From a virus: 20,651 bases of DNA. Positions 1 to 20,651 of the stretch are shown one piece after another. The DNA is taken from positions 1 through 20,651 of IMG/VR virus record IMGVR_UViG_3300045135_001272; one strand, 5' to 3'. Numbering within the stretch: the first letter of the stretch is position 1; each line of letters begins with the position of its first letter. A program made the translations under genes and the position numbers. The notes under the pieces were generated by a model. That model was not told where the DNA came from and ran no database searches. It was given only the letters and a program-made list of their open reading frames with translations.

Positions 1-3000
1 AATCAGCTGAAGGTTATCTCGCTGGTAACCCCCAATACGAAAGAGTAGAAAATATTCGTGGTGTAGGCGATACTTTTGGCTATGGTGCTTACCAGCTAGC
101 TAAACAAGGCCCCATGCTACTAGGTCTTACTGGTGCTACTCTAGTTAACCCAGTTCTGGGTGCAGCTGCTGGCGCTTCAGTAGGTGTTGGCTCACTATAT
201 GAAAGTGCTAGAGAAGCTGATGGGTATGTTAGTAGCGAAGACTTATTTGAAATAGGTGGCAAAGCTGTACCATATGCTCTGTTGGAGACACTTACTCCTC
301 TGGCATTCGCTAAATTACTTCGTGCTGGTGCTGGTGGTGTAAAAGGCGCGGTTGCTGGTGGTGCTCGTGGTGTAGCTGCTGAAGCAAGTACTGAGCTTGG
401 CCAGACCGAACTTGAAATATCTATGAACCCCAACCTTACCGAGGAAGAAAAAGCCTCGATGCGCCTTAACGCAGCTGTAGCTGGCGGACTAGTGGGTGGT
501 GGTCTCGGCACTATCGGCGGTGCTATGGGGAGGGGGCAAGAACAAGAAGGCACAGACCTAACACAAACTATAGAGGGCCAACCAACACCAACGCCTGCAC
601 CTATAGATACAAGCGAACTACGACAGACCGAACTAGATATACCCATGGATGGCGTATATGAAATGGATCGTGACGAAATAGGTGCACCAGATCCTGCGGC
701 TAGAGTAAAACCCGCTGACGAAGTAGATGTTACGCCCCAGCAGTTCGACAACGAGGATCAGTTCTCGTTCGATTTCGTTACTGACGAAGAAGCTCGTATA
801 CGCAGTATAACTGCTGTGGAAGACCGCATTATCGAACTAAGGGAGCGTGTCAAAAGCGCTAGGAACATTCCTGCGCGCAGAGCAAAAATGGCCACCCAGA
901 GAATCGCTGCGGTAAACGGTAATATCGCTGCCATAGATGAGCGCATTGCTGAGATTGAAGAGGACGTTAACACGGTGTCTGGCAATCCGATCAAGCCCCA
1001 GTACCGCAGAGAGTACAATCGCCTCAAGCAGGATCGAATTAGGCTTGAAGAAGAGGTTGGTAGATGGTCTAAAGACGCTGACAAAGTAAACGCAGCTAAC
1101 GAAATGGCCACCCTAGTTATGGGCTTAGACGCCTTGCATCAGGGTGTTGATATAACAGATCTCGAAGAAGCACAGCTAGAAGCCGTCCGTGTTGCCATAC
1201 CAGAAGAAGTTGCATACTTAGAGCAGCGCAAAACGCTTAGAGACGCAACTGATTTGACAGCACAGCCTGCTGAAGAAGTAGTTGTTGAGCCCGAGTCTGA
1301 ATTAGTTACTGAGCCAGTAGAGCAAGAGGCTACTGAAGTCCAAGCGACCGAAGAGGTTGTTGAAGCCGCTCCCGTAGAACAAGTAGCAGAGCAAGCTCCT
1401 GCTAAATCACAGCCCACCGGTGAAACTCTAACTGAAGATGAAATCCTAGACGCCGCTATTAACGACGTAGATACTGAAAGCACTAGGCTGGAAGCTGAGG
1501 TAGACACTGAAGGTCGTAAACCTGTTGGCCGCGTCACAATGGACAAGCCGATGTTAGCTGGCATTATGCGCATGATTAGGGCTAAAGAGTTTTCGCCTGA
1601 CCCCAAAATCTACGAGCTAGGTGCTGATGGCAAACAAACGGCTAGAGTTGACGCCAAAAGAACAGAACAAGATGCCGCTAAGATGCGTCGCATTTATAAG
1701 CTGTTTATGGAAGTCGCTGCCACCAAAAAGAAAATGGATGACAAAGGCAAGAACATATTCTACGGCAGGGAAACCACCAAAAATGGCGACCCAGTAGAAC
1801 GTAAAATATCTACACTAGACAAAAATGCTCGCCAAGCCGTGGAATACCAGCGCACACTGCGATCTAAGGTAGAGAATCTTATCGACGAAGCAGGCGGTGA
1901 AGCTAACGTCCAAGCTCTTATCGCAATGACCAAGCGCTACCGCGACGAGGTTGGTACTTTTGTTGCTGACGCCAAAGGTTTTGCGCGCTATAACGCTGAG
2001 TTCAACAAGAAAGGTAACCCGTTCACTTCTATGCGAGATGTGCTAGCTACTATTGATACTAGTGTGTCCTCTGCGTTTGCTGGCTATCGTGATGGCGACC
2101 TTACTGAGACTCTAGACCGTGTATCCCCAAGACCTATTAGGGATGTTCTTAAGCGGTCTGAAAAGTCTTCTACTTCAAGGTTGCAACGTGTAGTCGAAGA
2201 AGGTGGTATCAAAGGGCTAATGGAGCTTGTTACTACTAGAGAAGGTACTCGCTCGCCCTATGTGATTATGCTCGGCTCTGCCATAAAGTACGGTATTGAG
2301 GGTATGACCGCAGCTGGGTTTAGGCCAGAAGTAGAGTTTATTACCGAAGGTAACCCATACTACGACAAAGCCCTAAACACTATATTTATCCGTACCGAGG
2401 CATCTGAAGAAGAAATCCTGCACGAGACCTTGCACGCTGCAACCTCTTGGTATGTACAACAAAACCCAGAAGCCGAAGCTGTGGTTGAACTTCGTAGCAC
2501 GCTAGACAATGTCCTCAATACCGCGACGCCAGAGTTTGTTCAGAACTTGGAAATGGCCGACGCAAGTAAAGACCGGATCAATCGCGTACTGCAAATTCTT
2601 CGCGATCTAAAGGCTAGTGGCAACCCTGATGACGCTGTGTTAGAGCTTGTTTCGTATGGTACTACCCTGCGTGACTTTAAAGACATGCTGAAAGAGATAG
2701 GCCAACCAGAAACACAAAGTATGCGTGGCTGGAAAAACATCATAGAAAGCTTATGGAGTAGCTTAGCCAATCTCGTTGCTAGGATACTGGGTGTTAAAGA
2801 TACAGCTGCCAACTCTGTGTTAAACAACACATACCGCTTACTTGAGTCTAGCCTACAAGAAAAACCAAGCAAAGAAGACTTTATAAGTGGGCAACTCAAT
2901 GCGTTGGTATCACAGTCAAACAATGTAGATATCACTGGTAAGGGTGTAGAGCTAAACGAAGCGCAGCGAGAAAAACGCCAAGCGTATGTCGGTGCTAACA

Positions 3001-5576
3001 TCACTCGCATGCTTATTGAGCAGCTTGGCATCACTACAGCCATAGACAAGACATCACAGCAATTCAAAAAGGCTGGTAGCTACATCCGCAAGGAACTGCC
3101 ACTACTAGAGAAAACCATTAGTACGTTTAACACGCGCTTTGGTGTGTCTCCAGCTCTTAGCGACTTGATGGATATGTGGAAAGTTATTCGTAACACTCCG
3201 CTCACTATCGTCAACCGCTTAATTACTAAGGGCTTTGAAAACCAGTCTGTGGATCGCCGACGCGCCATGATCGATTATATGGACGGCACTGATACGCAGG
3301 CTATTGAACAGTACAAAGACTCTGCGGCACTTAAGCTGATGGCTGACAGCTTGTTGAATCACTATAACGAGTTTATCGCGCAGCTGCCAGAAGAAGACCA
3401 AGCATTGTTTGCTGATAAGAAATTCTCTGACTCCCTGATCTATGTGGCGTCTGGCAAAGACGTATCTAGCCACAATCTAAGTCAGCGTAGCTTAACTGAG
3501 TACGCCAAGTCGGCTCTTATCCGCATTGACCAAGCTGATGTAGATAACAACCCTGATCTGCTACGCCTTGACCAGAACGGCGATGCCATACTAGATGAGC
3601 CTTTGTATCTCGTAACAGTTACCGACGGCATTAGCGGCAAGGACTACCAGCTTATAGCAAGTAAGGATTTAGTAGATTCTGTCGGCAGAGACAACCTCAA
3701 TATTGGTGATCCATACGTAGTGCATGATTCAGCGCCCGTTGAGTTAGTAAACTTTTCTAACGGCAAGTACAACTTCCGCGAGACTCGCAACTATGTAGAA
3801 AACATGAACGATGAAAACACAGAGAAGCTTACGGTCGCTATGCTTAACACCATGGCCGCACTGTCTAACTACTCGGCGTCTAAAGCGTTCTTGCAGGGCC
3901 TTGCAAACTACGACGGTGAACCAGTTGTTTACGATAGCGCTGAGCAAATAAGAGCTAGACACGAAAACCCGAACATCACTATAACTGACGCGGCTGAACT
4001 AAAAAGCCCCACTATTAAAGCCGCAACCAGATCAAGCCAGCACTGGATTCGTGTCTCTGACAATGAAAAATTGTGGGGCCCGCTAGCTGGTAAGATCATC
4101 CATGCGCCAGTGTGGCACGCTATGAACGATATGTCAGACAGATCTCCGCTGACTAATTTGCGCTGGGTCAACCAAGGTATGACTTTCTTCAAGAAGGTGA
4201 AGACTGTACAGAACCCCGGAACTCACATCACAAACGTAGCGTCTAACGTAACCCTAGCGCTTATGCACGGCATACCAATGAAGACGGTAGCTAGAGCAGC
4301 TAAGTTGTTGTGGGAATTTGAGGCAAAGCCTGAGCGATTTAAGTCGCCCGAACGCGAAGCAGAACTACAACTTATCCAAGACTTCTATGAGTCTGGTGCT
4401 TTGTTGGGTACATTCTCTGCGGTCGAAATTAAAAACGTTTTGCACCAAGCGCACGTCGACGCACTTAAAACTGGTGAGTCAGACTCTGTTGAAGGCAAAG
4501 TTAGGCATTTCGTAGAAGCCGAGATGGGCAAGAGCAAGCTAGCCAAGAGAGTAAAAGGCTGGTGGAATAACTACGACGAGTTCACTACTCAGTTATATGC
4601 TGCGGAAGATAACGCGTTCCGTTTAGCTGCCTATCTCAATAAGATCGACGAGCTGGGTGGTGATGCTACACCCGAGAACAAAGCCGCTGCTGGTAGAGCC
4701 GGTCTTAAGATGTTCTTAGACTACGATATCGATGCACCAGCTGTTAAGCTTGCGCGCCAGTCAGTGTTTCCATTTATCTCTTGGACATACGCTGCGATGC
4801 CTCTTATTGGTCGCATTGCTATGGAGAAGCCTTGGCAGATCGCTAATGTGATGATTGCCTATACCATACTTGATATGTTGGCTTCAGGCTTAGCGGGTGA
4901 CGATGATGAAGCACGTAAGTTCGGGCCAGAGAAATTAGACGAAAGAACATTTGGCTTGCGTACTCACATACGCATACCGGGTTTGGGCGATGAACAAAAC
5001 CCAGTGTACTACCGTTTAGGTGAATATATACCGCTTGTATCTACATTTGGTAGAACGCCTACAGGCTTCTTGGGGTTTGAGAATTGGCCCCAAGGATTTA
5101 AGCCCGGCGGCCCGCTGGTAGACAGCTTGACAATTATTATGACTGGCACAAGTCCATTTACTGGTAAGCCGCTGTATGAAGACACAGAATCCGATTTAGG
5201 TAAGCTAGGCGGCATATTTGGGGGGCTAGCTGGTATATTTTCACCGCCGTGGCTCCAGTCTTATAGTATCAAGGATATTAACAAGGCCCTTAGTGGTGAT
5301 GTGTCGTTTGCCGGTAACGAAGAGAGTCTTGCCAAAGCCGTAGCATCTAGAATATTTGGTCTGAAGATTGTCGACTACAATCGAGCAGAAGAAGCTATGT
5401 TTAGATCTATGCGCGAATCCGATATAGGCCGAAAGTACAAGTCTGCGATACGCAAACTACAGCGTGAAGAAATGCGCAGTGGTACGCCAGACTATGAAGG
5501 GTTGTATGAAGAGATTCAGCGCTTAGAACTTGAAATGCTTAGTGAAGTAAGAAAAACCTACAAAGTAGAGGAATAA
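1..5576 (+). CDS. Giant internal virion / polyvalent-type protein, 5' end outside window
   Basis: The reading frame is open from the window edge (codons from base 3) to TAA at 5574-5576, giving about 1857 visible residues; the true start lies upstream. The first in-window ATG (114) is internal, since the open frame continues before it without a ribosome site. Gly/Ala-rich hydrophobic stretches at about 114-200, 255-390 and 462-530 suit a membrane-penetrating virion protein. A coiled coil spans about 790-1090, and a Glu/Val/Pro-rich linker about 1255-1420. HETLH at 2421-2435 is an HExxH zinc-metallopeptidase motif. The region 4200-4900 ('NPGTHITN', then the hydrophobic segment 'VFPFISWTYAAMPLIG') resembles C-terminal large-polyvalent-protein-associated domains of phages. 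Giant proteins of this kind, at the end of a structural module, usually are ejected with the DNA. Virion role and domain naming are inference; length, HExxH and composition are seen. Confidence 0.75.
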   Translation, partial: SAEGYLAGNPQYERVENIRGVGDTFGYGAYQLAKQGPMLLGLTGATLVNPVLGAAAGASVGVGSLYESAREADGYVSSEDLFEIGGKAVPYALLETLTPLAFAKLLRAGAGGVKGAVAGGARGVAAEASTELGQTELEISMNPNLTEEEKASMRLNAAVAGGLVGGGLGTIGGAMGRGQEQEGTDLTQTIEGQPTPTPAPIDTSELRQTELDIPMDGVYEMDRDEIGAPDPAARVKPADEVDVTPQQFDNEDQFSFDFVTDEEARIRSITAVEDRIIELRERVKSARNIPARRAKMATQRIAAVNGNIAAIDERIAEIEEDVNTVSGNPIKPQYRREYNRLKQDRIRLEEEVGRWSKDADKVNAANEMATLVMGLDALHQGVDITDLEEAQLEAVRVAIPEEVAYLEQRKTLRDATDLTAQPAEEVVVEPESELVTEPVEQEATEVQATEEVVEAAPVEQVAEQAPAKSQPTGETLTEDEILDAAINDVDTESTRLEAEVDTEGRKPVGRVTMDKPMLAGIMRMIRAKEFSPDPKIYELGADGKQTARVDAKRTEQDAAKMRRIYKLFMEVAATKKKMDDKGKNIFYGRETTKNGDPVERKISTLDKNARQAVEYQRTLRSKVENLIDEAGGEANVQALIAMTKRYRDEVGTFVADAKGFARYNAEFNKKGNPFTSMRDVLATIDTSVSSAFAGYRDGDLTETLDRVSPRPIRDVLKRSEKSSTSRLQRVVEEGGIKGLMELVTTREGTRSPYVIMLGSAIKYGIEGMTAAGFRPEVEFITEGNPYYDKALNTIFIRTEASEEEILHETLHAATSWYVQQNPEAEAVVELRSTLDNVLNTATPEFVQNLEMADASKDRINRVLQILRDLKASGNPDDAVLELVSYGTTLRDFKDMLKEIGQPETQSMRGWKNIIESLWSSLANLVARILGVKDTAANSVLNNTYRLLESSLQEKPSKEDFISGQLNALVSQSNNVDITGKGVELNEAQREKRQAYVGANITRMLIEQLGITTAIDKTSQQFKKAGSYIRKELPLLEKTISTFNTRFGVSPALSDLMDMWKVIRNTPLTIVNRLITKGFENQSVDRRRAMIDYMDGTDTQAIEQYKDSAALKLMADSLLNHYNEFIAQLPEEDQALFADKKFSDSLIYVASGKDVSSHNLSQRSLTEYAKSALIRIDQADVDNNPDLLRLDQNGDAILDEPLYLVTVTDGISGKDYQLIASKDLVDSVGRDNLNIGDPYVVHDSAPVELVNFSNGKYNFRETRNYVENMNDENTEKLTVAMLNTMAALSNYSASKAFLQGLANYDGEPVVYDSAEQIRARHENPNITITDAAELKSPTIKAATRSSQHWIRVSDNEKLWGPLAGKIIHAPVWHAMNDMSDRSPLTNLRWVNQGMTFFKKVKTVQNPGTHITNVASNVTLALMHGIPMKTVARAAKLLWEFEAKPERFKSPEREAELQLIQDFYESGALLGTFSAVEIKNVLHQAHVDALKTGESDSVEGKVRHFVEAEMGKSKLAKRVKGWWNNYDEFTTQLYAAEDNAFRLAAYLNKIDELGGDATPENKAAAGRAGLKMFLDYDIDAPAVKLARQSVFPFISWTYAAMPLIGRIAMEKPWQIANVMIAYTILDMLASGLAGDDDEARKFGPEKLDERTFGLRTHIRIPGLGDEQNPVYYRLGEYIPLVSTFGRTPTGFLGFENWPQGFKPGGPLVDSLTIIMTGTSPFTGKPLYEDTESDLGKLGGIFGGLAGIFSPPWLQSYSIKDINKALSGDVSFAGNEESLAKAVASRIFGLKIVDYNRAEEAMFRSMRESDIGRKYKSAIRKLQREEMRSGTPDYEGLYEEIQRLELEMLSEVRKTYKVEE

Positions 5577-6460: not shown

Positions 6461-6712
6461 TTACTTCATTTTCGCAGATTTAGTGCGGGCAAAAGATCTG
6501 TTAGCTGACTTACTTTTCACACGAAGGTTAGAGCGACCATTGCTGCCGCCCTTAGCCATCGGGGTTTTATGGTCTACGTCTTTGCCATCACCCTTTCGTA
6601 CCTTGCCTTCTTTCTCCATTGTGCGACGGGCCGCGTTGCGCTTAGCCCGTTTTTTCTTCTGCTCTGGAGAGCTATGATAGTTGTCATACTCTTTGCCGTA
6701 GTTGCGTGACAT
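6461..6712 (-). CDS. Small basic HNH-like protein
   Basis: The protein has 83 residues and is very rich in Lys, Arg and Ser. 'DVDHKTPMAKGGSNGRSNLR' matches the HNH core pattern D-H-..-P-..-GG-..-N-L, so it probably is a minimal HNH nuclease or a DNA-binding relative. The flanking CxxC pairs of larger HNH enzymes are absent, leaving activity uncertain. The ATG (6710-6712) shares one base with the primase-helicase stop (TAATG), with ribosome site GGAGG seven bases upstream, so it is translated at the tail of the replication transcript. Phage HNH proteins of this size are often found near packaging or replication genes. It is the terminal gene of the - strand block. Confidence 0.7.
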   Translation of the reverse strand: MSRNYGKEYDNYHSSPEQKKKRAKRNAARRTMEKEGKVRKGDGKDVDHKTPMAKGGSNGRSNLRVKSKSANRSFARTKSAKMK

Positions 6713-9681
6713 TACGCTTCCTCCGCGAGGTCTATGTTGTTTACCGCAGCGATAAGCTTATTAGTCTCTCTGCCGTCTAGCTCCGAGATAATGTCCGCGA
6801 ATCGTGGGTGCAGTAGGCTTACGATTATACACCATACCTGCGTTGGGTTACGACCTTGGCAACTCTTAAACATAGCTATGCGACGGTTCTCGTCTATCAA
6901 AGCTCCCATGGACTCAAGTTCGCGCAGTATGCGATCTTCTGCGTCATTGGTATCCCGCAGGTATTTCTTAAACGCCGCCTTGCTAATCGCCAACAAACTA
7001 CCCGGCATAAGGTTGCCGCTCTTGTCCGTGACAATCTCCTGACGTACCACTGCTTTAAGCGGCGCAGGCATATGCACTTGGAACTTGTTGTTGGCTCCGT
7101 ATTCTTTGTAAGCCTCTACACGCTGGTCGTTCTTCTCGTGCATGAACTGGCCAATCACATCGATAGCATCTACGACGGCGTCAACCGCACGCTTCCTGTT
7201 GTTCACTACTACGCCTAGAATGTGGCGTATCGTTCCCTCAACATCGAATGGAAATAACCCTAACGCCCTGCCCATCTTTCCTAGACCCCATGCAGCGATG
7301 ATCATAGACTCATAGAAACGTTCCGTAGGCTCGAACTCAAAACCAAAAGTGCGGTTAAAATCTTCCCTTGCTTTCTGGGCTACCAGCTTGGGGCCACCCA
7401 TATCGACGACTGCCTGCGCTAACTCTGGGCCAGCAAAGCCGTAGTTTTCTAGTAGCAAGTCTATGTATTTGTGTGCGACCTTAACACCGTCCTCGTCGAG
7501 TATGCTTACAAACTTGCGGTCATGCTGTGGCAGTTCTAATACACGAACACGCAGTGGGCCGCTCTGAGCCTTAGCTTCCGATACTTTTTCAATGACTGAA
7601 CTATTCGCTGACACAAACGTTGGGCCGTCCCAAGTCGCAGGCTCTCTAAGCTGTCTTGTCTGTGTGGAGCTTTTCTTGTCTCTGCCCTCACTGAAAGAGT
7701 AAACAACCTCGGCCACCTCGCGCGCGTCTACCATCGTGAACTCATCGATAGTCATTGGTATGTTGTTCAGCGTGCCGCGCACCATAAACGTCGCGGTGTT
7801 TGTATCTCTACGTGAACCCAGTAGTTCTTTTGGCGCACCAAAAATGCTATTCGCAGACAACAGTGATGCTGTCTTGCCTGTCGTGGAATCTGTCGAGTAG
7901 ATAGATATCATGCTTGAGCCGTTGCCTAAGTATTTCGCCAATATCCCAGTAAGCCCTAGTAGTACGCTAGAACGTATGGTCTCAGTACCAGCGTATTTAC
8001 CCAACATAGCCATAGCTTCTACGAACTTCTCACGCGAACCGTGCTGCTTGATGTGTTCCGATAGCTTTGCCGCGTCGCCCACTAAGCGTCTGTCATTGCT
8101 ACCGTGTGGTGGGTTTATGACTTTTTCTCCACAAATAAACGAGCCGTCTTTTTGCCAGCCAAATGTTTTATAGTCATACCCAGTATTTGATTGTTGTTGA
8201 ACCATACTCAAGTAGTCCATTAAGTAAATCCTCAATCGTTCTTGTTGTGCCTGTGTTCTAGCGCAGAATATCTGCAAGTGAAGTAGGAAAGCAGAGAAGT
8301 CTTTACCAGTCGTGGCGATAGCTGACATGTCGTGGTCTTTCTCTTCCCAACCCCTGCCGTTCGGGTAATGCACCGCTAGCGTAAACGAAGATGTGCCATC
8401 CTCTGGGTCAGTGTATATACCTTTGATATACATCAACCGTTCGGATATCAGCTCCATATCTTTGTATGGGTTGCCATCATCGTCGAACTTTTCTACTTCT
8501 TTGTAGAGCTTGCCACCATTGACCTTGTAGAAGTCTGGTAGCTTTATCTTGCGCTCCTCTTTAACTGGCTCTTCGTGAGCCGCTTCTTGTACTGCTTCCT
8601 GCACTACGATCTGGTCTGCACCACCTAACTGTGCGGGTGATGTTTTGTTGCCTAAATAAGGACAGCCCTCACAACCCTTGGGGCATAGCTGATTAAACGT
8701 ACCGCAAGTCGTAGGCCCTGTGCCCTTGTACCCGTCGATCTTACGCATGTTGTCGTCTAGGTCGAACTCTGGGTGGCCACCCGCTAGGTAGAGTACAGCT
8801 TCTTCTTTGTCCTTAGCGAACTTAGCAATACCCAACGACGCCCGCCACATTGGTTCGTCTACGTGGTTACCCGCCGCGTCTGTCTGACCGCCCGACTCAA
8901 TAAGTGCCCTTATCTGGTTACACTTCTCACCGATAGACAAAACATCTAGGTCACTATCCAGCGGTGTGTTAAGCACGCTGTCGATCATCTTGCTTCTAGG
9001 CTTTTGTACTTCCTTCGGTGCGTAGTCCTTAACCTTGCCATATAGCAGGGATATATCGTGCTCAGCGCCGTCGTCTAACAGAACCTTTACTGGCTTCCAT
9101 GGCTCAGACTTTTTGTGGTATGTCCCTGCAGGGCGCAGTACCATCGATGGGTCATGGATCTTACTAGTGTCGATCTCTAGGTTGTGTTGGGCTAGCGCGT
9201 AGCGGAATGCAGTTGAAACCTGCACCCACAAGTCCTTCTCTATATCGCGGTCTAATACCCAGTAAACGTGTGCACCATTGCCCGAGATAATAATAAGTGG
9301 CTTTGGTAGTTTAAGTTCTTTAACAACTTCGGCTAATTTAACAAGACCCTCTTCTAGAGTCTTGTATGGCTTATCCTCGCCACAGTCTAAATCGAAACAA
9401 ATTACTCTGAAGTATCTAGCGTTAGCTTGCGTCCGACTAATTTTTTGTTTGCCATCAACCTCTTCTATGTGATTCTCAAAAGCACCTATACTGAAGTAAA
9501 CGGTAGTTGTAGGGCTCTTATCCCACTGTGGGACTATGTCAGCAGCGTCTTGTAGTTCGCTGTATTTGTATGATCCCCTGTTCCAAAAAATTGTGTTGCC
9601 GTCGCTTTTCTTATCTAGTGTTGTTATTACTGTTTCGCCCTGCCTTGCACAGATGCGTCTAAGAAAATTAAGTGTATCCAC
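6712..9681 (-). CDS. Primase-helicase fusion: archaeo-eukaryotic-type primase plus DUF927-like ATPase
   Basis: The protein has 989 residues with a GTG start at 9679-9681; AGAGGA lies six bases upstream, supporting this start. The N-terminal third carries archaeo-eukaryotic primase signatures: FDLD with D97 and D99, SGNGAHVYW (133-141, His138), and RPAGT (183-187). Cys326, Cys333, Cys337 and Cys340 form a probable metal site between domains. The C-terminal half is a DUF927/SF3-type helicase: P-loop STTGKT (599-604), Walker B TIDEF (644-648), polar sensor Asn near 693 and a basic RVRV at 711-714. The first Gly of a standard P-loop is replaced by Thr597. Expected role: primer synthesis and unwinding at the fork. 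It lies directly after a strong terminator and before the small HNH gene, which overlaps it by one base. The family assignment is by motif only. Confidence 0.85.
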   Translation of the reverse strand: MDTLNFLRRICARQGETVITTLDKKSDGNTIFWNRGSYKYSELQDAADIVPQWDKSPTTTVYFSIGAFENHIEEVDGKQKISRTQANARYFRVICFDLDCGEDKPYKTLEEGLVKLAEVVKELKLPKPLIIISGNGAHVYWVLDRDIEKDLWVQVSTAFRYALAQHNLEIDTSKIHDPSMVLRPAGTYHKKSEPWKPVKVLLDDGAEHDISLLYGKVKDYAPKEVQKPRSKMIDSVLNTPLDSDLDVLSIGEKCNQIRALIESGGQTDAAGNHVDEPMWRASLGIAKFAKDKEEAVLYLAGGHPEFDLDDNMRKIDGYKGTGPTTCGTFNQLCPKGCEGCPYLGNKTSPAQLGGADQIVVQEAVQEAAHEEPVKEERKIKLPDFYKVNGGKLYKEVEKFDDDGNPYKDMELISERLMYIKGIYTDPEDGTSSFTLAVHYPNGRGWEEKDHDMSAIATTGKDFSAFLLHLQIFCARTQAQQERLRIYLMDYLSMVQQQSNTGYDYKTFGWQKDGSFICGEKVINPPHGSNDRRLVGDAAKLSEHIKQHGSREKFVEAMAMLGKYAGTETIRSSVLLGLTGILAKYLGNGSSMISIYSTDSTTGKTASLLSANSIFGAPKELLGSRRDTNTATFMVRGTLNNIPMTIDEFTMVDAREVAEVVYSFSEGRDKKSSTQTRQLREPATWDGPTFVSANSSVIEKVSEAKAQSGPLRVRVLELPQHDRKFVSILDEDGVKVAHKYIDLLLENYGFAGPELAQAVVDMGGPKLVAQKAREDFNRTFGFEFEPTERFYESMIIAAWGLGKMGRALGLFPFDVEGTIRHILGVVVNNRKRAVDAVVDAIDVIGQFMHEKNDQRVEAYKEYGANNKFQVHMPAPLKAVVRQEIVTDKSGNLMPGSLLAISKAAFKKYLRDTNDAEDRILRELESMGALIDENRRIAMFKSCQGRNPTQVWCIIVSLLHPRFADIISELDGRETNKLIAAVNNIDLAEEA

Positions 9682-9723: not shown

Positions 9724-10611
9724 CTAGTCGAAGAGATTATCAAGTTTAGCCGCTAACTCATCAGATGCTTTAACCGGCTCGACCTTTGGCTTCTCCGTGT
9801 TCTTCGCTACTACAGGCTCTTCCTCGTACGCCGCTGCTTCGTCGTCTTCTGGGCTAGCTTTCGGTGCTTCGATCTTAGCTGTCGTTTCCGCCGCAGGTAA
9901 TGCAGCTGCATTACTAGAAGCATCTATTAATCGAATCGCAACCTTCGTCTGTTCGGCTTCTAGCAGAGATTCTACCAGCGGGATCGCCTTCTCTGTGATG
10001 AAATCTTTCTGCTTGAATGTCAGCTTAGGATAACTTGCCTCGTCGTCAAAGCCAAGCTCAGTGATCACTTCTTCTGGACCAATCCCATAGTTAGCAAGGT
10101 CGGCGAAGTACGAACGCAACGCCTTCATACCAGAGACAGGTACAGTTAGGTTATACACCTTGCTTGGGTCTGCCGCAGCTACTACTGCTAGGTGGCGTTG
10201 GTCTGAACACATCTTCGACTTGGCACCTGATGGCAAGATCTTGGAACCCAGCACGTTGTTGGGGCAATTCGCACAGCTGTCACACACAGGGCTTTGTACG
10301 GCAGCGTGTGGCTTGATGCCGTCATGTGAGAAGCAGTCTGGGCTCTGGTCATCAGCCGCCTGATCAAACTTGCGTGAGTAGAAAATCTTGGAGACCTTGG
10401 GGTTCACACCAACGATAATCACGTCAAGTGTAATACCTACGGTGCTCTCTGCCCCACCCTCTACGAGACGGAATCGGCTAGCACGCGTGCTGATGCGCGG
10501 AATAGAAGTTCCTTGGCTACCAACAATCGTCGATGCGAGTGTGCTGGTCTTGTTCTTCTTACGCTCTGCAATACGCGCGGCGATGTGGGCTGGTACATTC
10601 ATGGTAGTCAT
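9724..10611 (-). CDS. Probable single-stranded DNA-binding protein with Cys cluster and acidic tail
   Basis: The start was placed at ATG 10609-10611 because GAGGAAA lies eight bases ahead; a frame extension 13 codons longer lacks this site and runs into the preceding gene. The protein has 295 residues. The middle holds Cys110, Cys113, Cys116 and Cys135 (C-x2-C-x2-C-P ... C), with Cys93 nearby, a probable zinc or iron-sulfur site seen in related phage proteins. The last 65 residues are low-complexity Ala/Glu/Pro, ending in DELAAKLDNLFD, the acidic-hydrophobic tip typical of SSBs that recruit partners. An SSB is otherwise missing from this replication set. There is no primary-sequence match to the E. 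coli SSB OB-fold that I can see, so the call rests on tail, Cys cluster and neighbourhood. A strong terminator follows it. Confidence 0.55.
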   Translation of the reverse strand: MTTMNVPAHIAARIAERKKNKTSTLASTIVGSQGTSIPRISTRASRFRLVEGGAESTVGITLDVIIVGVNPKVSKIFYSRKFDQAADDQSPDCFSHDGIKPHAAVQSPVCDSCANCPNNVLGSKILPSGAKSKMCSDQRHLAVVAAADPSKVYNLTVPVSGMKALRSYFADLANYGIGPEEVITELGFDDEASYPKLTFKQKDFITEKAIPLVESLLEAEQTKVAIRLIDASSNAAALPAAETTAKIEAPKASPEDDEAAAYEEEPVVAKNTEKPKVEPVKASDELAAKLDNLFD

Positions 10612-10621
10612 AGTAATTTCC

Positions 10622-11005
10622 TCACTTAGATTTACGGAAGTTAAACACATTTACTGAGCTGTAATTCACACCGGGTGGTGGCGAACCTTCAGCCTCTATA
10701 TAGCTCTTAACTGCTATCTTCGATGCACGTGCTTCGAGTAAATCCCAAGCATCATGCTCTTTGCAAAACTCGAAAAAGTCTTCACGTGACCCAACAGTCG
10801 CTGAGTGGTGTGTTGACCAGTAGGCAGTTCCAGCCGCAGTCTTGATGGAGGACAAGCCATCTTCCTGTGCCTTCGCTGTAAACCAGTTTTCAAGTGTTAC
10901 AAGTTTTTCTCTGATCGTAGCCTTCTGTTCTTTGTAAGCCCGATCAAGATCTTCAAGCTCACGCTTAACCAAAAGGTAGCGAGCAGCTGCCTCTTCATAG
11001 TTCAT
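10622..11005 (-). CDS. Conserved phage protein with N-terminal coiled coil, unknown function
   Basis: The protein has 127 residues and starts at ATG 11003-11005 with AGGAGA five bases upstream. Residues 1-45 are a charged helix, probably a coiled coil (RELEDLDRAYKEQKATIREKL). The middle 'SIKTAAGTAYWSTH' and the end 'SPPPGVNYSSVNVFNFRKS' match, from memory, a widespread phage family found beside SSB-like, nuclease and polymerase genes and having no settled function. Its stop (TGA, 10622-10624) lies only ten bases before the SSB-like start, whose ribosome site abuts it, so the two are co-translated. A role with DNA, like Gam-type coiled-coil proteins, is conceivable but unsupported by a motif. 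Confidence 0.7.
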   Translation of the reverse strand: MNYEEAAARYLLVKRELEDLDRAYKEQKATIREKLVTLENWFTAKAQEDGLSSIKTAAGTAYWSTHHSATVGSREDFFEFCKEHDAWDLLEARASKIAVKSYIEAEGSPPPGVNYSSVNVFNFRKSK

Positions 11006-18717: not shown

Positions 18718-18974
18718 ACCGTTTCTCCTTTGTGGACAACTTCATACTCTTGGCCGACCTTAGTCGCACCCCGGGCTTTCATCTCTTGTAAGATTACAGT
18801 TAGCGACCGACCCAGCGTGGACACATACACAATGTTCGCCGCGTCATCGACACTCAGCCAGTCTTTATCTACGTCAAGGCTTACGCCCAGTTCCTCGAAC
18901 CCACGCACTAGCTTACTTTCCATGCGAATAAGCCGTGTGCGTAGCTCTCTGTTATCATTTCTAGAAGTCGACAT
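18687..18974 (-). CDS. Conserved phage hypothetical protein
   Basis: The protein has 95 residues, ATG 18972-18974, overlapping the VWA protein end by 14 bases, with GGAG about nine bases upstream. An N-terminal basic helix (RELRTRLIRMESKLVRGFEELG) is followed by 'TLGRSLTVILQEMKARGATKVG' and 'VVHKGETV'. I recall similar short proteins in phages and prophages without assigned function. No catalytic motif, Cys pair or membrane span is visible. Confidence 0.65.
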   Translation of the reverse strand: MSTSRNDNRELRTRLIRMESKLVRGFEELGVSLDVDKDWLSVDDAANIVYVSTLGRSLTVILQEMKARGATKVGQEYEVVHKGETVCMLTYQPKF

Positions 18975-20085
18975 TACATACTACTCCGAATGGTACATCT
19001 GTCTGGCGGTTGCCAGTATTAGCCCAGATCACAGGAATGCTTGGATCAGGACACTCATCTAAATCGCCGTACATGTCAGTAAAGTAAATCATACCGTGCA
19101 CGACATCGGTCATTGTGTTGATGTGGTCGAATACAGGCTTGAACTTAGTGCCGCCACCACCCGCCATATGTAGCTCGATGTCATCGCCGCGATCAAAACG
19201 TTGCACCTTGCGAATGTGCGTGTCACAGAATACTACCTCGACAAACTCTGGTGTTAAGTCATCCACGATAGCTTGGATCTCGCAGGCTGTCTGCTGTAGT
19301 TCTTTCTGAGTCATAGACCCTGAGCTATCAATGCCGACTACGATACCGCCAACCGCCTCGTTATGCAATGCTGGTAAGTAAATACCTTGGCCTATAAACC
19401 GACGTGACAGTCGGGCATACGAGTAGTCATCCTGCATAGACGAAGACAACATTGCCCGCAGTTCGTTACGCCAGTCGACCTTGGACTGCCCGACGTTCTT
19501 GAGTATGGAGTCGACGATACCACTGCCATAGCCACACTCCTTGGCCGCCTGTGCCGACGCTATGATAGTTGCCTCAAGGTCTGCGAGTGTTGCGTCTGAC
19601 GGCGCGTCAATAAGGTCACCTGTGCCATCAAAGCCACCGCTCTCACCTTCGCCCTGACCCTGACCTTGGCCTTCGCCGTCGTCTTGCTGTTGCTTGAGTC
19701 GCTTGTACACTTCCTCGGATGACATGCTGTCAGTAACCCAGTCAATGAACACCGCGCCCTCTGGCAGGAAGTAACCTTGCTTCTTTATATAGGCGTTGAT
19801 GATCGCGTCGTTCGCTATGTTCCACAGCTGTGGGTCACGGCTACCTCTGCGCCATGGGTGCAGTAACACAATGTGTAGCGCTTCGTGCACGGTCAGGCCA
19901 AACAGCTGGCGGTCATCTTGCTTAGCAACAAAGTCAGCGTTGTACAATATGCTCTTGCCGTCAGTTGCAGCGGTCGGTACCTCGTCGCTGATCTCTTTCT
20001 TGATCTTGGTCATAACAGCGGCGATGAACGGCTCTTTCAAACCTAGCTTGCTGAATGTATTGTCGATACGTTCTTTAGTATTCAT
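18961..20085 (-). CDS. DUF2201-type metallopeptidase-like protein with VWA domain
   Basis: The start is at ATG 20083-20085, six bases after GGAG; longer frames starting at GTG 20103 or ATG 20097 lack such a site. The protein has 374 residues. HEALH (67-71) is an HExxH zinc site, and Asp93 in NIANDAIIN is a likely third ligand, as in the DUF2201 N-terminal domain. A Gly/Gln-rich linker (about 137-153) leads to a VWA-like domain with MIDAS DSSGS (253-257), Thr313 and Asp337 (YFTDMYGD). Such proteins pair with MoxR ATPases, whose C-terminal end lies two genes upstream; together they resemble metal-insertase or protein-remodelling systems. The phage target is not known. Confidence 0.88.
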   Translation of the reverse strand: MNTKERIDNTFSKLGLKEPFIAAVMTKIKKEISDEVPTAATDGKSILYNADFVAKQDDRQLFGLTVHEALHIVLLHPWRRGSRDPQLWNIANDAIINAYIKKQGYFLPEGAVFIDWVTDSMSSEEVYKRLKQQQDDGEGQGQGQGEGESGGFDGTGDLIDAPSDATLADLEATIIASAQAAKECGYGSGIVDSILKNVGQSKVDWRNELRAMLSSSMQDDYSYARLSRRFIGQGIYLPALHNEAVGGIVVGIDSSGSMTQKELQQTACEIQAIVDDLTPEFVEVVFCDTHIRKVQRFDRGDDIELHMAGGGGTKFKPVFDHINTMTDVVHGMIYFTDMYGDLDECPDPSIPVIWANTGNRQTDVPFGVVCNVDF

Positions 20086-20374
20086 CGTAGTCTCCATACT
20101 CACCTAGTTCTCTACGCGCGACGATGTCAAGTAGCGCCTCTCTGAGTGTCCCGTGTCTAGTCTTCGCGTGCCCTGCAATGTACATCTTGTCGGCGTCCAT
20201 ATTGATGTGACTGAATATGGTGTACACCGTGTCCGTTGGGCTAGCTTTGTAGCCAACCCAGAATGACTCACGATACGGCGTGAACGGTTCGCTAATGCCA
20301 TACGCAAACTGTCTGCGCACGGCCACGTAATCACCAATCTGTAGTGCTATGTCTTGTAAGCTCTCGTTATACAT
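20075..20374 (-). CDS. Small unknown protein between MoxR-like and VWA genes
   Basis: The protein has 99 residues, ATG 20372-20374, with GGAGG nine bases upstream and the start overlapping the MoxR-like stop by eight bases. It ends 11 bases inside the VWA gene with an acidic, Tyr-rich tail (GEYGDYDEY). The body looks alpha/beta without a nuclease, ATPase or metal motif. Its fixed, overlapping place between the two partners suggests it belongs to the same complex, perhaps as adaptor or substrate; that is inference. Confidence 0.6.
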   Translation of the reverse strand: MYNESLQDIALQIGDYVAVRRQFAYGISEPFTPYRESFWVGYKASPTDTVYTIFSHINMDADKMYIAGHAKTRHGTLREALLDIVARRELGEYGDYDEY

Positions 20375-20651
20375 TGCTGAATGCCTCCGCGTTGTTGGCC
20401 GCCCAGTGTGTGAACGCCGCGCAGTTAGCTATGCCACGGTCTCGCTTGTAAGCCAGCTTGACTGCTAGGGTCTGGATATCACCTGACATCTGTGACAAGA
20501 AGCCCCACGCTTTGTCCATGTTGGTAGCGTCTAGGCGTGTCGCTAGGCCCATCGCTACGCAGTACAGCACGTTGAGTTCCTTGGGCACTTCTACGGTCTT
20601 GCCCGCTAGGATGTCGTCGATACGCGGCATCGATTCCCATACACGCATGTG
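20367..20651 (-). CDS. MoxR-like AAA+ ATPase, C-terminal end only
   Basis: Open from the window edge (the first in-frame ATG at 20646-20648 is preceded by more open frame), with the stop at 20367-20369. About 94 residues are visible. 'RIDDILAGKTVEVPKELNVLYC' and 'AVKLAYKRDRGIANCAAFTHWAANNAEAF' match the lid/C-terminal tail of MoxR-family ATPases that accompany VWA/DUF2201 proteins. The Walker motifs lie outside the window, so the call depends on this tail and on the VWA gene just downstream. Confidence 0.65.
   Translation of the reverse strand, partial: HMRVWESMPRIDDILAGKTVEVPKELNVLYCVAMGLATRLDATNMDKAWGFLSQMSGDIQTLAVKLAYKRDRGIANCAAFTHWAANNAEAFSNV

Follow-up and report, generated by a model that had tools for sequence, protein, structure and literature searches.

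A MoxR-type ATPase and DUF2201-VWA gene pair with candidate partner proteins at the end of a viral contig

The window analyzed here, the complete 20,651-base IMG/VR virus record IMGVR_UViG_3300045135_001272, ends in three minus-strand open reading frames (ORFs): one of 94 aa that is open at the contig end, one of 99 aa, and one listed as 380 aa (18961-20103). A preliminary description of this DNA had read them as the tail of a MoxR-like ATPase, a 99-residue protein and a VWA-DUF2201 protein joined by overlaps, an arrangement that Pfam and PHROG matches and the overlaps themselves bear out (Table 1). The listed GTG start of the VWA gene at 20103 was rejected as an over-call, since the homolog in the related locus L002 begins at the point corresponding to ATG 20085 of the window, which GGAG precedes by six bases; with this start, the middle and VWA genes overlap by 11 nt, and the ATPase and middle genes by 8 nt. 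Of the six frames, only that of the middle ORF has a codon score above zero relative to the window's own genes (0.098; the others range from -0.195 to -0.628). A fourth overlapping gene, designated D, had been missed in the preliminary description. In a tblastn search the VWA protein matched 410 of 50,697 phage records, all at less than 60% identity, and the module is not a product of chance, as 334 of these 410 matches cover at least 80% of its length.

Table 1. Features of the gene cluster at the end of the window
Feature	Position	Strand	Basis and remarks
ATPase C-terminus, last 94 residues	20367..20651	-	phrog_1297 match; phmmer with L002 ATPase; 76% identity to L134 ATPase C-terminus
Middle ('slot') protein, 99 aa	20075..20374	-	ORF and coding-frame score; overlaps ATPase stop by 8 nt
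DUF2201 zincin-like metallopeptidase and VWA protein, 374 aa from ATG 20085	18961..20085	-	PF13203, PF09967, phrog_1314; start from L002
HExxHxxxxH motif (HEALHIVLLH), predicted zinc site	19858..19887	-	Sequence and six-protein alignment
MIDAS DxSxS (DSSGS)	19315..19329	-	Completed by T at 19147-19149 and D at 19075-19077; alignment columns
GGAG Shine-Dalgarno-like site	20092..20095	-	6 nt before ATG 20085; sequence
D gene, 95 aa	18687..18974	-	Overlaps VWA stop by 14 nt; phmmer homologs

The minus-strand block of the window also carries, according to Pfam, a DNA polymerase A, an SNF2-type helicase, a RecB-like nuclease and a DUF927 protein. The last of these (989 aa, 6712-9681, minus strand) has a weak, sub-threshold Pfam match to a prim-pol domain near its N-terminus, and the product of the adjoining gene (9724-10650, minus strand; 308 aa) matches PHROG 27714 (E 4e-20), a family of unknown function. 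On the strand opposite to the replication genes, positions 3-5576 (plus) encode a protein of at least 1857 residues that contains the motif HETLH; PHROGs and NCBIfam gave no match to it, and Pfam a single sub-threshold one.

The ATPase tail aligns only to the C-terminal positions 261-354 of the 356 of PHROG 1297, labeled 'ATPase' (E 2.1e-7), and to the full-length L002 ATPase with an E value of 1.5e-38 (phmmer). Walker motifs are not visible in the window because the remainder of the protein lies beyond the end of the record. The earlier claim that the upstream gene encodes an AAA+ ATPase is therefore upheld through relatives: L134 and L002, the two nearest ones with a full ATPase (their VWA proteins being respectively 74% and 63% identical to that of the window), both have GKSGIGKS and LFLDE, and regular expressions detected Walker A in 112 of 113 distinct ATPases longer than 280 aa, and Walker B in 106. 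The L002 ATPase matches PF07728 AAA_5 (35.7 bits for a cut-off of 22), while its matches to PF07726 AAA_3 (19.0, cut-off 27) and to the bpMoxR model (E 0.046) fall below the cut-off; a search of solved structures returned nothing. The MoxR clade is defined by an insertion that helix 2 of its AAA+ domain carries, as stated in PMC7159879.

The VWA protein matches DUF2201_N (PF13203, residues 11-246, E 4.4e-38, 131.9 bits for a cut-off of 23.2), DUF2201 (PF09967, residues 254-378, E 9.7e-24, 84.3 bits for a cut-off of 26.4) and phrog_1314 (E 2.2e-90); a search of solved structures gave nothing. The HExxH and MIDAS motifs, described earlier as intact, are so: HExxHxxxxH, WNxAxD and the MIDAS columns D253, S255, S257, T313 and D337 are invariant in six aligned phage VWA proteins. 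As the search for the VWA family itself used HExxH patterns, conservation of this motif was taken only from loci seeded with the slot family or with the window's VWA branch. Among the 57 distinct VWA proteins from these searches, which used no HExxH pattern, 56 keep HExxHxxxxH and all 57 keep DxSxS; 16 were also reached through the HExxH-pattern search, and of the 41 that were not, 40 keep HExxHxxxxH. Such conservation concerns sequence, and the zincin domain could in practice be inactive.

The phrog_1314 family is labeled 'HNH endonuclease', a label that stands under the match in 38 of the 60 phage records listed (of 410), with 4 more reading 'homing endonuclease'. This assignment was rejected, as Pfam finds only DUF2201_N, DUF2201 and a weak VWA match in the window's protein. 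A possible source of the labeling error is that a true HNH gene occupies the slot between ATPase and VWA genes in Vibrio phage SBP1, and that an HNH intron splits the ATPase gene in Klebsiella phage Pylas.

Insertion of metal by the pair, which the preliminary description had raised, was not borne out. A machine of the chelatase type, inserting a metal or activating a metalloenzyme as CobST and magnesium chelatase do, could be invoked from the distant similarity of the L002 ATPase to phrog_249, labeled porphyrin biosynthesis (E 0.001). However, this similarity is expected of any ATPase of the MoxR/chelatase clade, no tetrapyrrole or cofactor gene was recognized in the window with Pfam, PHROGs or NCBIfam, and the adaptor carries a predicted peptidase domain instead, so that we regard this explanation as highly improbable.

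To follow the neighborhood of the pair, relatives were collected from IMG/VR with three seeds, namely the VWA family (80 loci, the best 80 of at least 586 confirmed relatives), the slot family (40 loci, 10 of whose contigs had, by contig name, already been found through the VWA-family search) and the window's VWA branch (at least 35 loci), and named phages were added. Loci identical over the last 300 VWA residues were merged (168 to 130), and near-copies were dropped to build a tree of 106 rows by a quick method without bootstrap. Among the matches listed, the slot of the 130 distinct VWA loci contains one gene of a family that we designate M in 44 cases, two M genes in 11, a c218 gene in 18, a c283 gene in 16, other genes in 17 (window included) and no detected gene, with a gap shorter than 130 nt, in 18; 6 slots could not be judged. 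Loci included in these counts also served to build the M and c283 profiles. Neither an ATPase match in the retrieved DNA nor a classifiable slot was found in 6 of the 130 loci (ATPase cut or absent). Of the 18 c218 proteins, 12 match Nmad5 at E <= 0.01 (best 5.3e-10); of 14 c283 proteins, 4 match DUF3150 (best 1.2e-6). In the tree, the window falls within a supported clade of 38 rows, of which 33 have M, 2 end at the contig edge, 1 has no slot gene (L035) and 2 have another gene (L026 and the window); its sister, L134, bears M.

M proteins are 84 to 126 residues long, with a conserved C-terminal helix (approximately F..l..A..yvEalFALe). When M alone served as seed, all 40 loci had a VWA gene downstream and 38 had an ATPase gene within 71 nt upstream, the other two having just 28 and 68 bases of upstream sequence before the contig end. 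The M profile recovered 103 ORFs among 6,828 at E < 1e-3, and 102 of them lie in the slot; the remaining one, in L156, misses it because the VWA start of that locus is over-called. M is under purifying selection: dN/dS is below 1 in all 70 usable pairs, with a median of 0.17, compared to 0.08 for VWA and 0.04 for the ATPase. Moreover, M identity is lower than VWA identity in each of 210 pairs drawn from 21 loci, and median identities over these pairs are 72% for the ATPase, 58% for VWA, 51% for D and 26% for M. Linkage to the slot, purifying selection and low identity together indicate that M is a real, dedicated and fast-evolving gene. A model computed from 14 M proteins has five strands and the C-terminal helix (pLDDT 83). 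Foldseek gave no PDB match at E <= 0.001 (best 0.34) and the best VIA-align Z was 5.2, a commonplace value, so no fold is claimed, nor is novelty of the fold implied; in BFVD the model matched only one protein, from an uncultured phage (E 3.9e-7).

These results bear on the possibility that the middle gene is a passenger, the junction between ATPase and VWA genes being merely a tolerant insertion site whose occupants lie outside the machine. Such an idea draws on the unrelated nature of the occupants, among which are the HNH endonuclease of Vibrio SBP1, a gene annotated as exonuclease in Kc283 and many genes in CRP-7, and on the 18 of 130 empty slots; yet it accords poorly with the presence of M in 33 of the 38 rows of the window's clade, with its confinement to the slot (102 of 103, L156 being explained by its VWA start) and with purifying selection on M, and we consider it unlikely. 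The empty slots, one of them (L035) in the window's own clade, do indicate that the slot protein is dispensable and no universal part. The earlier suggestion that the middle protein may be the specificity factor is thus possible, M being the fastest-evolving of the four genes, but it is unproven and could not hold for all loci. Faster evolution of a small protein can also reflect weak constraint instead of the tracking of a client.

The window's own 99-aa protein shares the slot and falls within the size range of M. It belongs to no family in Pfam (E <= 0.1), PHROGs, NCBIfam or PADLOC, it has no tblastn match in the 50,697 phage records and no exact peptide-pattern match in IMG/VR, and the M profile does not match it by hmmsearch at E <= 20. 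In an hhalign comparison its residues 71-90 were aligned with the C-terminal helix of M (P 0.033). It is co-linear with the M protein of L134 at 29% identity, while the three neighboring genes are 74-80% identical between the two loci. The global alignment with L134 M has a z score of 2.97; its score was reached by 26 of 2000 shuffles, its identity by 4 of 2000, and its z by 2 of 300 background ORFs. By local score L134 M ranks first of 2,685 ORFs with BLOSUM62 (50, followed by unrelated ORFs at 48 and 47) and sixth with BLOSUM45. The link to M thus consists of position and one marginal pairwise similarity, from which we judge the 99-aa protein likely to be a divergent M homolog; replacement of M by an unrelated protein in the window is possible. 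As for the expectation that the middle gene would co-occur with the pair elsewhere, it stands for the small slot gene of the window's clade, which is strictly linked to the pair (40 of 40 VWA and 38 of 40 ATPase genes when seeded with M), and is not borne out for the 99-aa protein itself, given its empty phage search and negative M profile. A single-sequence model of this protein (pLDDT 56, all helices) was left unused.

Downstream of the VWA gene, a D homolog is present in all 38 rows of the window's clade and in 94 loci, for the most part no further than 100 nt from the VWA stop (phmmer); D has no Pfam family. Searches of the phage collection by tblastn with the D protein, with an M protein and with an Nmad5-like slot protein gave no match. 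Upstream of the ATPase, a gene of the DUF3150 family was found in 43 of 44 distinct loci, these being loci of the M type or of the clade in which 1.5 kb or more precedes the ATPase; 16 further loci of these kinds have less than 1.5 kb. In the other loci it lies between the ATPase and VWA genes (15), lies in an unclassed place (5) or is absent (38), and 12 had too little sequence. The wider conserved third partner of the pair thus appears, from gene neighborhoods, to be the DUF3150 protein; a DUF3150 gene next to the window's own cluster is a prediction, as the window is cut before that point.

The three-gene core is also present in cyanophages and on plasmids. The cyanophages Pag-Yong1 and MinM2 (both 65,014 bases, and alike) have ATPase, DUF3150 and VWA genes clustered, and the L002 DUF3150 protein matches 42 of 72,556 plasmid records. 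In each of the three plasmid regions opened, of these 42 records, ATPase, DUF3150 homolog and DUF2201-VWA genes run in the same direction with HExxH and MIDAS intact, the ATPase being 3.6 kb away in one of them. The order differs: in Burkholderiales and Acetobacteraceae plasmids DUF3150 lies between the ATPase and VWA genes, whereas the window's clade has it upstream, with M in the slot. Two genes after the VWA gene of Planktothrix phage Pag-Yong1 lies a gene deposited as anti-CRISPR AcrVA2 (L089:5548-6588).

The pair itself is already known, from phage N4 and from a report on jumbo phages. N4 gp24 (ATPase) and gp25 (vWFA), of PHROGs 1297 and 1314, are the same two proteins in the same order as in the window; the window's VWA protein matches gp25, which adjoins gp24, with an E value of 5e-11. 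The N4 locus differs by 167 nt between the two genes, and by giving no M, D or DUF3150 match. Homologs of gp24 and gp25 are among the 14 core genes of 25 N4-like phages, according to the accessible part of that study (PMC4193335). Iyer et al. (2021) described, for jumbo phages of group 2.2, a MoxR ATPase with a vWA protein fused to an N-terminal metallopeptidase domain, as in the window, and proposed a role in virion assembly; the portion of their text available names no slot gene, DUF3150 or downstream small gene (PMC7824862). New here are the partners of the pair, that is, M, D and DUF3150. In the open literature searched, which leaves out most subscription journals, no paper contains 'DUF3150' and none of those listed describes these partners in its title, the opening of its abstract or the text consulted, and the fast-evolving slot protein M and the DUF3150 partner common to plasmids seem not to have been described previously.

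Other MoxR-VWA systems offer functional analogies. RavA-ViaA, CbbQ-CbbO and ATV p618-p892 resemble the window in combining a MoxR-clade motor with a VWA partner, and differ in that the sections available on them do not describe these partners as having a DUF2201 peptidase domain. CbbO docks rubisco through its MIDAS, with CbbQ as the motor, which is experimentally supported (PMC4660213, as far as accessible), and the viral MoxR ATPase ATV p618 is reported, in the available part of a review, to bind the VWA protein p892 and to be stimulated by it in its ATPase activity (PMC4124505). The VMAP/iSTAND ternary conflict systems likewise share MoxR, vWA and a third protein. According to the part of the source at hand, this third component is VMAP, iSTAND, FtsH or a beta-propeller (PMC7159879), none of which was matched by the slot proteins scanned here. 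PADLOC detected nothing convincing in the window. A literature search for experiments on the DUF2201-type phage members found none.

We propose, with the balance of evidence about even, that the operon cut short at the end of the window encodes an ATP-driven protein remodeler or protease with swappable partners, acting before virion assembly. A MoxR AAA+ ring would drive the machine; in the DUF2201 protein, the VWA domain would use its MIDAS metal to dock a client, and whatever is presented would be cut by the adjoining zincin domain, presuming that this domain is catalytic. The fast-evolving slot protein, here the 99-aa one, would most likely touch the client or tune the VWA protein, and the steadier 95-aa D protein is encoded alongside; small partners of this kind may adapt or regulate the machine. 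From the layout of relatives, a DUF3150 subunit would be encoded just upstream. We infer that these proteins form a complex and that it would act in early infection, on a host or replication complex.

A rival to this proposal is a virion assembly chaperone-protease, in which the pair would help to assemble the particle and trim structural proteins. That role was proposed for the identical architecture in jumbo phages (PMC7824862, in the part available); it is also suggested by analogy with ATV tail development in the p618/p892 work, as reviewed in the accessible sections of PMC4124505, and by roseophage RPP1, reported to encode four virion proteins near its gp24/gp25 homologs (PMC4193335, available part). 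Plasmids, however, make no virions, and the MoxR-DUF3150-VWA core in all three plasmid regions opened, of 42 records matched, weakens a role confined to the virion; N4 gp24 and gp25 are middle, not late, genes in the same available part of PMC4193335, and the window's module sits with replication genes and not with structural ones. None of these three arguments is decisive, but together they point to a function before virion assembly, and we hold the assembly role to be rather improbable.

A bolder version of the remodeler proposal is doubtful at this stage: an offensive MoxR-DUF3150-zincin/VWA machine common to phages and plasmids might, early after entry, dismantle or cut host complexes, possibly defenses, with fast-evolving slot proteins particular to each lineage (M, Nmad5-like and others) as interchangeable client adaptors, and might be for mobile elements what the MoxR-vWA ternary conflict systems are for bacteria.

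The gp24/gp25 pair is core and uncharacterized in N4-like phages, is found in hundreds of phage genomes and is often mislabeled as HNH endonuclease; with DUF3150, M and D named as conserved partners, there are complexes that can be tested. That plasmids carry it too argues for a task wider than the building of virions, and where a rapidly evolving subunit is tied to a conserved motor, client specificity is naturally sought in that subunit.

The diversity of slot genes provides further leads. In one clade the slot proteins (c218, L038-L085) are Nmad5-like; phage nmad5 has been associated with predicted DNA modification and with escape from the Tmn defense in Dhillonvirus (PMC11846954), so that these proteins form a lead from the module to DNA modification or defense. 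This lead was not taken as evidence for the window, as no Nmad5 was found among the window proteins scanned. Tandem M-type slot genes with strongly diverged copies are present in L023, L024, L025, L121, L122, L146, L149 and L156. Finally, a second slot ORF of L160 (2510-2929), also present in L161, has a DnaJ-type CxxCxGxG zinc finger (PF00684, E 2e-5, below the cut-off) ahead of an M-like C-terminal end, a sequence feature hinting at a chaperone-like adaptor.
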